DNA from: Bacteroidota bacterium
GTDB lineage: Bacteria > Bacteroidota > Bacteroidia > Bacteroidales > Prolixibacteraceae
Reading direction: 5' to 3'
DNA length: 62,787 nt
NCBI GenBank assembly: GCA_030684645.1
Contig: JAUXUF010000083.1
Coordinates: forward strand, 1-62,787
The position numbers and the translations under genes were made by a program. This document shows, one piece after another, positions 52,199 through 57,734 of this stretch (within the stretch, counting starts at the first letter, position 1; each line of letters opens with the position of its first letter). The notes under the pieces were generated by a model, which saw nothing but the letters and a program-made list of their open reading frames with translations, did not search any database and was not told where the DNA came from.

Positions 52199-54133
52199 TT
52201 ATAGAATTGGAAAAATCTTGCTGTCCGCCAAATATTCCATGATAATCCGGGTATTTTGTGCCCTGTTCTCAGGTTTTAACACCAGTGTCGGATTTTCAGG
52301 AGTGGTGTATTGAAGATCAGCTCCCGGAAGGTTCTCAATCAATCCCTGCTCAAATTTTTCGTATAATTCCGGTTTGTTCTTTTTGCAGAATTCCAAATCG
52401 GCATCCATATGAATTAATTTAAACCGATCTTCTCCAATAATCTGAATGACCTGATTGCGGATCTTCTCGTCAGGAGAAATGAATGAGCAAATGGTTATAA
52501 TACCCTGATCATTCAACAACTTGCTGATGTGCGCAACCCGGCGAAGGTGTTCGGCCCGATCGGCAGGAGAGAAATCCAGCTCATTGGAAAGCCCTGATCG
52601 GATGGAGCTGCCATCAAGCAAAACGACAGTTGCCCCATGTTCAAAAAGTTCTTTCTCGAGTGTAAATGCCAGTTCATTTTTTCCTGAACCGTGCAATCCG
52701 GTAATCCATAAAGTGGTTCCTTTTTGGTTGTAGCGTTTCTGTAACTGCGCTTCCGAAATCAGGCTTTCTCCTTTGTGAATGCGTAGTTTGTTGGCTTCCA
52801 GTGTGTTCTCATCAACTATTCTCGAAGGAAGATCTTCTGCATTGAGTTTGTCAATGATCATACCAACGGCGACCGTGTTGTTGGTCATGGGATCGATCAG
52901 GATAAACGAGCCAGTGCTTCTGTTCTTTTTGTATGGATCGAAGAAAATAGCTTTGTTGGTTGTCAGAACCACCCGTCCGATTTCGTTTAGTTCAAAATGA
53001 TCGACGCTCGATTTCTGAAGGGAATTTACATCCGTTTTATATTGGATTTTATCGATCCTGACCCGGGTGGTATTGTTGGCATGTTTAATAAAAAACTGCG
53101 CGCTGGGATCCATCGGCTTTTCGTCCATCCAAACCAGCATGGCTTCGAAATGACGCTCGATGCGTGGCAGGTTATCCGGATACACAATCATGTCGCCGCG
53201 GGAAATATCTATCTCGTCTTCTAGCGTAATGGTGACCGATTGTGGCGGAAATGCCTCATCCAGATTGCCATCGTAGGTAATTATTTCTTTTATTCTGGAA
53301 GTTTTACGAGATGGCAGAACCATAATTTCTTCGCCTTTCCGGATAATTCCGGAAGCCACACGGGCTGAAAAACCACGAAAATCGAGATCGGGACGAAGAA
53401 CGTATTGAACAGGAAACCGCATGTCGTCGAAGTTCCGGTCGCTGCTGATGTGCACGGATTCCAGGAATTCGAGCATACTTTTACCATGGTACCAAGGCAT
53501 CAAAGTGGTTGGTTCTACTACGTTTTCACCTTTCAATGCCGAAAGTGGGATAAAATTCACATCCGGAACATCCAGCTGTGTGATAAATGCTTTGTATTCG
53601 GCGCAAATTTCATCAAATACTTTCTGGTCGTAATTCACCAAATCCATTTTGTTGACTGCCAGGACCACATGCCTGATTCCCAGCAACGAAACTAAAAACG
53701 TGTGCCGGCGGGTTTGAGTAATGACACCTTTTGTGGCATCAATCAGGACGATGGCCAAATTGGCAGTTGATGCGCCGGTTACCATGTTCCGGGTATATTG
53801 TTCGTGTCCGGGCGTATCGGCAATGATGAATTTTCGTTTGTTGGTCGAGAAATACCGGTAAGCCACATCAATCGTGATTCCCTGTTCGCGTTCGGCTTTT
53901 AAACCATCGAGTAACAAAGCATAGTCGATTTCCTCTCCGGCATGTCCAACCCGTTTACTATCCCGTGTAAGGGCCGAAAGCTGGTCTTCGTATATTTTCT
54001 TGCTGTCGAATAACAAACGTCCGATCAGTGTCGATTTGCCATCGTCAACCGAACCTGCTGTCAATAAACGGAGCAGGTCTTTTTTTTCGTCCTGGTTGAG
54101 GTAGGAGTTGATGTCTATTGTTGGTGTTGTCAT
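52199..54133 (-). CDS. cysNC: CysN-CysC fusion: ATP sulfurylase GTPase subunit with degenerate APS kinase domain
   Basis: 644 residues. Residues 1-450 are CysN, the GTPase that drives ATP sulfurylase: P-loop '[10 protein letters not shown]' (26-35), 'DTPGHEQY' (106-113) and 'NKMD' (161-164). Residues about 470-644 are an APS-kinase fold, but its P-loop reads 'GLHGSGKNE' (479-487), with Asn where a Mg-binding Ser/Thr is required, and the catalytic DGDN motif reads 'DGSS' (507-510); 'FSPAD' replaces FSDAD. I infer it does not phosphorylate APS but may bind nucleotide as a regulatory domain. Partner CysD is encoded upstream, separated by a four-helix-bundle gene. Confidence 0.93.
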
Positions 54134-54167: not shown

Positions 54168-54530
54168 TCAGGTTTTCCATTCTGACTCGACATATTTTAT
54201 GAAATTTGCTATCTTAATCCCTAATGCGTTCAATTCTTCAGTTATCGTATTCCATCCGGTTTCAGGATGTATTTTATCTAAAAATTCAGATTGAGAGGTT
54301 GATTCCAATAAAGAAGAATGACTATAAACTAAAAACTTAATGAAATCAGCTTTGTATCTTCTTCTTCCATAACCTTCAATAATTGTATCTTTTATGGTTT
54401 GACTGGAACGTCTGATTTGACTGCCAGTTTCAAATTTGTCAGGATTCGGAAGTTTAAGAGTCATAAAATATATTTTCACGGCCAAATCGAATGCCCGGAC
54501 ATATATTTCAAGGTCTTTATAACTTTTCAT
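54168..54530 (-). CDS. Four-helix-bundle protein (S23/IVP family)
   Basis: 120 residues of the TIGR02436 family, first seen in 23S rRNA intervening sequences: 'SYKDLEIYVRAFDLAVKIYFMT', 'GSQIRRSSQTIKDTIIEGYGR' and 'KFLVYSHSSLLESTSQSEFL' are its helices. The family forms a pentameric four-helix bundle of uncertain role, often found as single inserted genes. Here it lies between cysD (78 bases before) and cysNC (34 bases after), splitting a normally adjacent pair on the same strand, so it is most likely an insertion carried along in the operon. Confidence 0.88.
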   Translation of the reverse strand: MKSYKDLEIYVRAFDLAVKIYFMTLKLPNPDKFETGSQIRRSSQTIKDTIIEGYGRRRYKADFIKFLVYSHSSLLESTSQSEFLDKIHPETGWNTITEELNALGIKIANFIKYVESEWKT

Positions 54531-54608: not shown

Positions 54609-55517
54609 TTAAAAGTACCCTTCTCTCTTTTTCTGCTCCATCGATCCATCCTGGTCGAAGTCGATTACGCGGGTAGTTCGTTCGGAAACGGTCACTGTCA
54701 TCATTTCCTCTACGATTTTTTCGATGGTGTCGGCTTCCGACTCAACAGCTCCGGTGAGCGGGTAACAGCCTAAAGTGCGGAAACGCACCATTTTCATTTC
54801 TGCTTTATCAGCCATTTCTTTGGGCATGCGCTGGTCGTCAACCATGATCAGGTTTCCGTCAACATTGACACACGGACGCTCTTTGGCAAAATAAAGCGGA
54901 ACAATTGGTATTTTTTCCAGGCGGATGTATTGCCAAACATCAAGTTCTGTCCAGTTCGAAATCGGGAAAACACGGATTGACTCGCCTTTATGGACGCGGG
55001 CATTGTAGATGTCCCACAACTCCGGACGTTGATTTTTAGGATCCCACTGGTGAAATTTATCGCGGAAGGAGAAGATGCGTTCTTTAGCCCGGGATTTCTC
55101 TTCATCGCGGCGGGCACCCCCGAAAGCAGCATCAAATTTATATTTGCTCAGCCCTTCGAGCAAAGCCTGGGTTTTCATCACATCAGTATGCACTTTACTC
55201 CCATGAGTAAATGGCCCGACACCTGCTTCGAAGGCTGACTTATTGTAATGAACAATCAGGTTCCAGCCGTTTTCCCGGGCATAATTATCACGAAATTCAA
55301 CCATTTCTTTGAATTTCCATTTCGAGTCGATGTGCATCAACGGAAACGGAACCTTTCCGGGGTAAAAAGCCTTTTCGGCTAGGCGAACCATCACCGATGA
55401 ATCTTTTCCGATGGAATAAAGCATCACCGGATTTTCAAATTCGGCTGCTACTTCGCGGATGATGTGGATGGCTTCGGCTTCCAGTTCTTTTAAATGCGAA
55501 AGACTGTATTCTGTCAT
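54609..55517 (-). CDS. cysD: Sulfate adenylyltransferase subunit 2
   Basis: Catalytic subunit of ATP sulfurylase, forming adenosine 5'-phosphosulfate from ATP and sulfate with CysN. 302 residues with the PP-loop '[13 protein letters not shown]' (SxGxDS pattern), '[15 protein letters not shown]', '[21 protein letters not shown]' and '[12 protein letters not shown]'. A TATTTTTG -7 box sits about 31 bases upstream, so cysD may also be transcribed separately from the permease gene before it. Confidence 0.97.
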
Positions 55518-55665: not shown

Positions 55666-57471
55666 TTAAAAGCTCCAGAATAATGGGATCAACAACATGG
55701 ATACCAGGAAAATAACTATATTTAACGGAAGTCCTACTTTCACGAAATCCCTGAATTTATAGTTTCCAATCCCTTGAACAATTAAATTGGTCTGATACCC
55801 AATGGGTGTGGTAAAACTTGCTGAGGCAGCAATTGCAATCGCTACAAAAAATGGTTTAGGATCGACTCCCATCTGAATTGCTGCAGACATGGCGATGGGA
55901 AATGAAATTGCTGCTGCTGCATTATTGGTAATCACTTCGGTGAAGATATTCGTAAGAAGGTAAATTGTAGCCAAAACCCCAATCGGGCCCCAGTTTTTGG
56001 CAAACCCAATGGCCGAATGGGCGATCCCGTCGGCAACCCCTGCGTTTTGCATGGCTTTGCTGATTCCAAACGAACAGGCAACGGTGATCAAAAGGTCCCA
56101 GCTAATGGCTTTCGTATATTTTTGATGTGGTACAATTTTTAACCAAATCATCAGCATCGCCGCGATGGATGAAAAAAAGAACATATCGGTATTTACATTG
56201 GCGAATTTGGGAAGATAATCAGCAGCAGTAGCTCCCGCAACCATCAGGGCCAGAATGCTGAGGGCCAGCCATTTTTTGCCTTTGGCCGTATTTTCATTGT
56301 GGTCGCCAATGTAGGTAGTGAGATAGAAAATCTTCGAATCTCCCCAGTTTTTTATGAACCTGTCGGTTGTGAGCAGAACCAGGTTGTCACCTTCTTTTAA
56401 TTTCAAACTTCGAAGATCAGAAGTGATGCGCTCACCATTTCGGTGCACAGCTACAATAACAGCCTGGTAATGGTCATAAAAATTGAATTCAACAATTGTT
56501 CTCCCAATGCCTGGGAAACGGGGAGCCAAAACGGCTTCATATTGTTTCAGATCGATGCTGTTGACTTGGTTCTTGAGCAGATCAAGTCCTTTTAACCGGA
56601 CACTTTTTAAATCTTTGATGATATCAAGTCCATTTGATTTCCCTGCAACTAACAGGTGATCATTGGCCTCGATGGTTAATCCGGGAGTTTTGCCCTCCAG
56701 TTTTATTCCTTCCCGTTCGATCTGGATGATGTCAAATCCTTTTAAATCCTTGGAACGGCCATTCTTCAGAATTTGACCAACCAATGGACTATCTGCCGGA
56801 ACCATGAGTTCATAGTAATAGTCTTTTTGATCGGATAATGGTCTCCGAATAAAATTTTTCTCACCGGGCAGTAAATGAACGCCAATGTAACTCATGTAAA
56901 AATAACCGACAAATGCCAGAGGAATTCCCACTAAACCTAATTCAAACATCGAAAATCCGGAGTAACCATTATCGAGCATTAACCCATGAACCACCAGGTT
57001 GGTCGATGTGCCGATCAACGTGCAAACACCACCCAAAATGGTGGCATACGAGAGAGGGATGAGAAATTTCTGTGAGGAAAGATTCAGGTCTTCAGCCCAC
57101 TTTTTGACAATCGGAGCAAAAATAATAACGATCGGGGTATTGTTCAGAAATGCTGACATAAAGGAAATCGGAAACATTAACCTGAAAAATAAAAGCCGGA
57201 TGTTTCCCCTTCGTTTGGGAAGAAAAGTGATTGCCAGCTTGTTCAATGCGCCCGATTGTTTAATTCCTTCGCTGACCACAAAAAGGATGGCAACGGTCAT
57301 CATGCCTTTATTCGAGAAACCGGCCAATAGCTCATTACTATGAATAATCCCAAAAATCATCAGGATGATCAGGGCCGAAAATAAAATTAATCCTGGCCGC
57401 ATAACCTCTTTAACCAGGGCAATAACCATGATTACGATGATTCCTAAGACGAAAAATCCTTGTGCTGTCAT
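55666..57471 (-). CDS. DASS/SLC13-type sulfate permease with two TrkA-C domains
   Basis: 601 residues: membrane helices about 5-195, two RCK-C (TrkA-C) domains about 210-380 ('MVPADSPLVGQILKN', 'HLLVAGKSNGLDI', 'PRFPGIGRTIVEFNF', 'GDNLVLLTTDRF'), then further helices to the end ('FITNNAAAAISFPIA', 'TTPIGYQTNLIVQGIGNY'). This layout matches SAC1-like SLC13 transporters that take up sulfate with Na+ or H+. Its position upstream of cysD and cysNC supports sulfate. The ATG overlaps the TGA of the cysQ remnant by four bases (ATGA), a relic of coupled translation. Confidence 0.9.
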   Translation of the reverse strand: MTAQGFFVLGIIVIMVIALVKEVMRPGLILFSALIILMIFGIIHSNELLAGFSNKGMMTVAILFVVSEGIKQSGALNKLAITFLPKRRGNIRLLFFRLMFPISFMSAFLNNTPIVIIFAPIVKKWAEDLNLSSQKFLIPLSYATILGGVCTLIGTSTNLVVHGLMLDNGYSGFSMFELGLVGIPLAFVGYFYMSYIGVHLLPGEKNFIRRPLSDQKDYYYELMVPADSPLVGQILKNGRSKDLKGFDIIQIEREGIKLEGKTPGLTIEANDHLLVAGKSNGLDIIKDLKSVRLKGLDLLKNQVNSIDLKQYEAVLAPRFPGIGRTIVEFNFYDHYQAVIVAVHRNGERITSDLRSLKLKEGDNLVLLTTDRFIKNWGDSKIFYLTTYIGDHNENTAKGKKWLALSILALMVAGATAADYLPKFANVNTDMFFFSSIAAMLMIWLKIVPHQKYTKAISWDLLITVACSFGISKAMQNAGVADGIAHSAIGFAKNWGPIGVLATIYLLTNIFTEVITNNAAAAISFPIAMSAAIQMGVDPKPFFVAIAIAASASFTTPIGYQTNLIVQGIGNYKFRDFVKVGLPLNIVIFLVSMLLIPLFWSF

Positions 57472-57704
57472 ACTGCTATAAAATGAGGGTTCAGTAGATC
57501 TTCTTTATTGTAACTCAATTCGGTTTTCAAATCCGGGTGATAGATATTTTTCCCGACAGCTTTTAAAATGACATGTCCGGCTGCAGTATCCCTCTGGTCT
57601 TCTTTATACTGAATATGAAAGTCAACCGACGAATAAACCTCTGTTATTTTTTCTCCGGCCCGGATGGCGGCGTTTATAGCAATGTCAATTAGTCGGATTA
57701 CGTT
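57468..57704 (-). pseudogene. cysQ: Internally deleted cysQ remnant
   Basis: Open frame of 78 residues that joins the N-terminus of CysQ ('DIAINAAIRAGEKITEVYSS', 'DFHIQYKEDQ') directly to its C-terminus ('RDTAAGHVILKAVGKNIYH', 'LSYNKEDLLNPHF'). CysQ is normally about 260 residues; the central metal-binding motifs are gone, so it cannot hydrolyse PAP. The deletion is in frame and the stop still overlaps the permease start. It is the first gene of the sulfate operon. An upstream in-frame ATG at 57734 is possible but gives no better match. Confidence 0.85.
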
Positions 57705-57734
57705 CATCTGGTAAAAGTAAGGAAGAATAGGCAT

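Follow-up and report, generated by a model that had tools for sequence, protein, structure and literature searches.

A CysNC fusion of a Bacteroidota bacterium with a probably kinase-dead APS-kinase-like domain apparently kept by selection

The CysNC fusion protein encoded in the window (the whole stretch of 62,787 nucleotides that was analysed) ends in an APS-kinase-like domain that, judged by its residues, is in all likelihood catalytically dead, while it is predicted to keep the APS-kinase fold and appears to be held by purifying selection. We consider it fairly probable that this domain acts as a dimer scaffold that holds APS or a nucleotide, possibly with feedback on the sulfurylase. The loss reaches beyond this one gene: it is common to a clade of Bacteroidota, and a similar loss characterizes the core CysNC of the Pseudomonadaceae examined.

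The initial annotation had described a CysNC fusion with the P-loop GLHGSGKN at residues 479-486 (Asn486) and DGSS at residues 507-510, and translation of the minus strand reproduces both exactly. The open reading frame contains 0 internal stops on this strand, whereas the plus strand of 52199-54133 is rich in stops. The gene and its two parts are as follows.

52199..54133, minus strand: cysNC, an open reading frame of 644 amino acids whose profile matches are to the CysN GTPase subunit of ATP sulfurylase and an APS-kinase-like domain
52784..54133, minus strand: CysN part, residues 1 to about 450 (TIGR02034, 621.9 bits against a cut-off of 336.1)
52274..52723, minus strand: APS-kinase-like domain PF01583, residues 471-619 (Pfam, predicted model and Foldseek)

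Pfam placed GTP_EFTU at residues 20-206 and APS_kinase (PF01583) at residues 471-619 with an E value of 2.9e-44; the whole-protein PF01583 score (151.2 bits; cut-off 21.1) is that of an APS-kinase family protein. The NCBIfam CysNC model NF004035 was matched with 882.6 bits (cut-off 715), and the CysN-CysC architecture is accompanied by an adjacent cysD. The sulfurylase half was judged by its family score; the kinase half, judged by residues, lacks the catalytic set of bifunctional CysNC/NodQ proteins. A plasmid DNA search with cysNC gave 281 records; among the matches listed, none reached 80% of the gene.

As reference for the kinase residues we took the active CysC domain of M. tuberculosis (PMC4373884, in excerpt), its positions being transferred by spacing and by an alignment with human PAPSS1. 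Four stretches of the domain bear on catalysis.

52676..52699, minus strand: P-loop GLHGSGKN, residues 479-486, with Asn486 aligned to the Mg-binding Ser/Thr
52604..52615, minus strand: DGSS aligned to DGDN, residues 507-510, with Ser509 at the proposed catalytic base
52556..52600, minus strand: aligned stretch with the kept APS-gripping Arg512 and Arg526 and with Phe521
52322..52378, minus strand: aligned lid, residues 586-604, with Pro588 for the lid Lys and Leu602 for the stacking Phe

Five positions are kept (M. tuberculosis K456 as Lys485, D478 as Asp507, R483 as Arg512, F492 as Phe521 and R497 as Arg526) and five are replaced (S457 by Asn486, D480 by Ser509, N481 by Ser510, K562 by Pro588 and F576 by Leu602). 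The replaced positions include the Walker A Ser/Thr that binds Mg, the proposed catalytic Asp of DGDN (D480) and the lid Lys K562. Two of the losses, that of the KGLY lid Lys and that of the FTG stacking Phe, had escaped the initial annotation, which had nevertheless proposed from the P-loop and DGSS that the kinase machinery is lost; by its residues this proposal holds. R483 and R497, to which an APS-gripping role is ascribed in the excerpted text of PMC4373884, are both present. As far as the alignment goes, the residues for phosphate transfer are thus gone and those that hold the phosphosulfate and phosphates are largely kept.

It might be supposed that the domain is still an APS kinase in which other residues carry catalysis. 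Lys485, Asp507, Arg512 and Arg526 are kept, and the NCBI apsK equivalog TIGR00455 scores 147.5 bits on the domain, barely above its cut-off of 138.7, a result that we also count against our preferred reading. However, the Mg ligand, the proposed base and the lid Lys are lost jointly, mutagenesis of mouse APS kinase is described as showing the base to be essential (PMC4373884, in excerpt), and genomes with sulfotransferase matches mostly carry a further CysC (see below). Continued kinase activity therefore seems most improbable to us.

From a contig scan of the best 80 of 92 relatives, 79 distinct loci were obtained, and 67 related fusions (the window protein included, nearly all from Bacteroidota records and some from an order sample) were aligned with a comparison set of 71 separate CysC proteins and NodQ-like fusions. 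This set includes L184-L210, which are best-scoring matches, and is hence biased towards intact enzymes; short rows were dropped from the residue count by length, the distant paralogues L066 and the first copy of L081, in which the base is replaced and the lid Lys kept, were grouped as 'other', and L160 was kept apart. The Mg-ligand position is Asn in 66 of the 67 fusions and Arg in the remaining one, so Ser/Thr occurs in 0/67 against 71/71 comparison rows. At the base position none of the 66 readable fusions has Asp (47 Ser, 17 Lys, 1 Asn, 1 Thr), and the lid Lys is likewise missing from all 66, whereas both residues occur in 71/71 comparison rows. A sequencing or assembly artefact was ruled out by the similar change in 66 other fusions. 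The equivalent of K456 is kept in 67/67 fusions, that of R483 in 66/66 and that of R497 in 62/66. The four rows that miss R497, the six (out of 66) in which the F492 position is neither Phe nor Tyr, and the absence throughout the related fusions of one of the two stacking Phe residues count against our preferred reading.

The GLHGxGKN pattern was found at the DNA level in 1 of the 296 genomes of a phylum sample (the own one) and in 10 of the 119 genomes of the order sample, where it occurs in 10 of the 12 fused genes (PF01583 matches, recognized as fused by frame length) and nowhere else. The other two are those of G415, a fusion with other losses (GLAGSGKR and LEGS), and of G373. The latter (L160, G373:C11) is the sole fusion of the order sample with an intact P-loop and DGD, its lid being cut off by the contig end. 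Reduction has gone further in some CysN proteins: those of L058, L063 and L059 have tails of about 155, 159 and 103 amino acids that lack a P-loop. Over their first 60-75 residues these tails align with the profile of the dead domain (38.8, 49.1 and 22.4 bits, respectively, as full scores), and a separate CysC is also present at each of these loci. For the CysN proteins of L065 (Odoribacter) and L068 (Prevotella), whose tails are short, no significant match to this profile was obtained.

Such reduced or absent domains, together with a rate of evolution somewhat higher than that of CysN, could suggest that the domain is a neutral passenger heading for loss. Selection was examined with 20 close sequences, of which 154 out of 190 pairs were usable. 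The median dN/dS is 0.047 for the kinase-like domain (maximum 0.116) against 0.029 for CysN, values that are rough since dS is near saturation (median > 1); the 21 pairs with dS < 1 give 0.047 and 0.022, respectively. Furthermore, conservation across 67 sequences reaches at least 97% in 37 columns of the domain. The ratios (about 0.05, at most 0.12) and these columns point to purifying selection and make a neutral passenger hardly credible; chance decay of the domain was ruled out by dN/dS, even with a median dS > 1. The earlier proposal that the domain is retained as a module is in line with these ratios, and strong selection on the tail in relatives suggests that it probably has a structural or regulatory job now.

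The fold, described in the initial annotation as kept, is indeed predicted to be that of an APS kinase. A model of the domain built with 40 sequences has a mean pLDDT of 93.7, and its best Foldseek match is A. thaliana APS kinase with APS (4fxp; TM 0.86), with the dead fungal domain 1i2d at rank 48. The full-length model (pLDDT 70.7) was too poor to use.

The own genome assembly consists of 408 contigs and is 99.42% complete with 3.27% contamination. A PF01583 search of it, covering the separate intact cysC that the initial annotation had suggested looking for, found no second APS kinase, cysNC being the sole match. Of the two PF01507 matches one is CysD and the other a CysH, which lies on contig C367 outside the window; the sulfite/nitrite reductase family PF01077 is matched with 136.2 bits. 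The CysH has CCHIRKVEPL and SIGCAPCT and thus carries both APS-reductase signatures, CCXXRKXXPL and SXGCXXCT (PMC3125206, in excerpt); the same paper leaves the substrate open for one species with both motifs and cysC. With no other APS kinase found and a CysH of the APS-reductase type, APS is very probably the end product in the own genome, as had been proposed.

Genome searches covered 50 genomes chosen from the 79 loci. One CysH gene was fetched from each of 47 of them (G005, G045 and G049 had no CysH to fetch), and 44 of these 47 genes have both APS-reductase motifs. The exceptions are a fragment with one motif (L129), a gene with CC but no CXXC (L106, from G046, which has a further CysC) and L128 of Pseudomonas kuykendallii, which has neither motif and is one of four PF01507 matches there. 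The 50 genomes used for CysC and sulfotransferases are the own one plus 49 relatives and do not include the Pseudomonas. A further CysC beside the fusion was found in 20 of these, and none was seen in the other 30 (the own genome and 29 relatives). The motifs were seen in 19 of the 20 further CysC proteins (that of G012 is atypical, with GRPCAGKT; that of G018 is a fragment at a contig end). Frames of some 450 amino acids in relatives that matched weakly, with about 20-25 bits, were not counted as CysC. By these searches the genomes of Sunxiuqinia dokdonensis, S. indica and Gaoshiqia sediminis have the dead domain and no further CysC, whereas that of Mangrovibacterium lignilyticum carries a separate, intact CysC and that of S. 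elliptica an atypical one. As an observation of its own, L143 (G043:C109) combines CysC and CysQ matches in one 454-aa frame near a sulfotransferase match and is possibly a CysC-CysQ fusion.

Sulfotransferase matches (PF00685 or PF13469, E up to 0.001; that of G017 lies under the Pfam cut-off) occur in 18/20 genomes with a further CysC against 5/30 without (Fisher P 2.7e-7, a value that ignores relatedness and unequal completeness); the own genome has none by the same search. In three genomes (G008, G013 and G043) no more than a few kb separate the further cysC from a sulfotransferase match. Users of PAPS thus mostly have another kinase, a pattern to be expected of a fused domain that produces no PAPS. 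The five exceptions with a sulfotransferase match and no further CysC (G022, G024, G026, G039 and G041) count against our preferred reading; either they speak against a fused domain that makes no PAPS or these genomes are incomplete. CysQ clears PAP, which is also produced by the loading of acyl carrier protein. CysQ scored over its cut-off in 16/20 genomes with a further CysC and in 10/30 without, and was dropped as a marker of PAPS use as being ambiguous, although we count the 10/30 against the preferred reading as well.

Fungal ATP sulfurylase offers a known precedent for a dead domain of this kind. In P. chrysogenum the C-terminal domain is APS-kinase-like, lacks that activity and mediates allosteric control by PAPS (PMC3734648, in excerpt). 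The fungal protein (structures 1i2d and 1m8p) resembles the window protein: in both, ATP sulfurylase ends in an APS-kinase-like domain, and changes have struck the same three motifs. By its residues the window domain would likewise qualify as a kinase-dead APS-kinase-like domain, with a different loss pattern. The fungal domain has GKD in the P-loop, LLGDT for LDGDN and KRGIY for KGLY. A change of the same residues was considered and rejected, as the alignment shows the same motifs with other residues: P. chrysogenum has lost the first Asp of DGDN and kept the second Asp and the FTG Phe, whereas the reverse holds for the window protein. Moreover, the fungal sulfurylase is single-chain, whereas that encoded in the window is not of this Sat type but consists of CysD and CysN.

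A PAPS sensor of the fungal type that would throttle ATP sulfurylase, the parallel drawn in the initial annotation, could find its ligand where a further CysC may supply PAPS (20 of 50 genomes) and would fit the shared alteration of three motifs. In the own genome and 29 others of the 50, however, the search showed no second APS kinase, PAPS is accordingly expected to be absent, and the window protein has lost the two residues that the fungal domain keeps. PAPS is thus an unlikely ligand in the own genome; APS, ATP/ADP or no ligand is likelier, and we regard a PAPS sensor as very unlikely. The window protein is a cousin of the fungal case and no member of it, since the sulfurylase type and the lost residues differ and PAPS should be missing. 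Of the initial interpretation, the residue loss, APS as the probable product and a retained domain are supported, and the parallel with the fungal PAPS sensor, in the form given, is not.

The preferred reading, a kinase-dead scaffold that holds a ligand, can be put as follows. CysD-CysN would make APS, which would pass straight to the APS reductase CysH; the C-terminal domain would dimerize the CysD-CysNC complex as a scaffold, would still hold APS or a nucleotide without turnover, and may feed the level of this ligand back to the sulfurylase. The motif losses with the kept equivalents of K456, R483 and R497, the selection, the APS-type CysH and the fold support this reading, as do the missing second kinase, the pairing of CysC with sulfotransferases and the dead domain of P. 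chrysogenum. A purely structural module, which would dimerize CysD-CysNC and bind no ligand, would explain part of the same data: the M. tuberculosis kinase-domain dimer is described as built mainly by helices alpha2 and alpha3 (PMC4373884, in excerpt), and the window helix 523-542, taken as alpha2, holds several of the best-conserved columns. The lineages with a P-loop-less tail favour a purely structural role, or none, in L058, L059 and L063. A near-invariant GLHGSGKN and two arginines would, however, be needless without a ligand, and we consider a purely structural role rather unlikely for the window protein, if still worth keeping in mind.

M. tuberculosis CysNC and S. meliloti NodQ share with the window protein the domain order, the adjacent cysD and the kinase fold. 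The kinase domain of the former is described as active in vitro (PMC4373884, in excerpt), and NodQ (L179) is intact with GLSGSGKS, LDGDN, DPKGLY and FTG, which the window protein is without. Sulfurylase-kinase fusions also occur in yeast and Aquifex, with the other sulfurylase type; the fused kinase domain is described as active in Aquifex and as without a defined function in yeast (PMC3779200, in excerpt). Thiobacillus denitrificans provides the mirror image, an APS kinase with a dead sulfurylase-like domain predicted to stabilize assembly (PMC13213808, in excerpt): in that protein it is the sulfurylase that has died and the kinase that remains active, the opposite of the window protein. Among the matches listed in a search of titles and abstract openings of open-access literature (subscription papers lay outside its scope), no description of a kinase-dead CysNC was found.

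A similar loss was encountered in the Pseudomonadaceae. PF01583 was matched in 59/59 genomes of a sample of this family, and 28 rows of core CysNC (L211-L233 plus L067, L070, L072, L073 and L075) represent 25 genes, from 21 of the 59 sample genomes and four further loci, three genes having been fetched twice (L212/L216, L213/L233 and L073/L224). In 25/25 genes the base is replaced by Gln or Lys and the lid Lys by Gln or Ser (DGQN or DGK.; PQGLY or PSG.Y), and the FTG Phe has become Ile or Val, losses that the window protein shares. Unlike the window protein, these proteins keep the P-loop Ser/Thr and mostly the Asn of DGDN, and they have lost F492. Another 27 CysC copies taken from this sample (L184-L210) have DGD and KGLY intact. 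The structure 1zun_B, presumably from P. syringae, is a Pseudomonadaceae-type CysN part whose chain stops before the kinase domain. P. aeruginosa is described as using an APS reductase (PMC3125206, in excerpt).

Whether both dead groups have one origin is a matter on which the trees differ. In a kinase-domain tree of 58 rows the Pseudomonadaceae and Bacteroidota groups stand together against 31 others (support 99/94.9, with the bootstrap unsettled), and in one of 73 rows this grouping is supported by 94/91. The CysN tree, on the other hand, places each dead group with the unfused CysN of its own surroundings, with dead and unfused forms mixed, and the Pseudomonadaceae core CysN part is not the nearest kin of the window CysN. 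The kinase-domain grouping may reflect long-branch attraction. Two accounts are open to choice: repeated loss of an old dead fusion, or fast evolution that pulled the domains together.

It is conceivable, and we put it forward tentatively, that an old kinase-dead, ligand-holding domain is common to the GTPase-type ATP sulfurylases that supply APS reductases directly with APS in Bacteroidota and Pseudomonadaceae, and that it acts as an assembly switch or sensor of APS, not PAPS. If so, many 'bifunctional CysNC' proteins would make no PAPS, and a domain that senses APS would mean that bacteria have, in GTPase-driven form, a counterpart to the way fungi control sulfate activation. For the window protein itself, the kinase half of the NF004035 name (bifunctional sulfate adenylyltransferase/adenylylsulfate kinase) would be wrong, and such an annotation would add a false sulfation branch to metabolic models. 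The question can be tested in related strains, some of which have a further cysC and some of which do not.

Upstream of cysNC four neighbours follow, all on the minus strand.

54168..54530, minus strand: open reading frame for a four-helix-bundle protein (TIGR02436 / 23S rRNA IVP family, by profile matches), between cysD and cysNC
54609..55517, minus strand: cysD, ATP sulfurylase subunit (NCBIfam profile)
55666..57471, minus strand: CitMHS/DASS-type transporter (profile matches)
57468..57707, minus strand: putative cysQ remnant, a short open reading frame whose C-terminal end resembles TIGR01331 209-248 (24.8 bits, under the cut-off)

The transporter is possibly a sulfate permease, as its place suggests. 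Promoter-like sites number 15 against 14.1 in shuffled sequences, and terminator-like sites, at 9 against 6.1 (sd 2.3), are in slight excess. The four-helix-bundle frame lies at the same place in L006, L009 and L028 among 18 loci searched. The cysQ remnant lies directly upstream of the transporter, its N-terminal part being CysQ-like by eye, and in the relatives G004, G006, G007 and G010 a whole cysQ shares the contig with cysD and cysNC.
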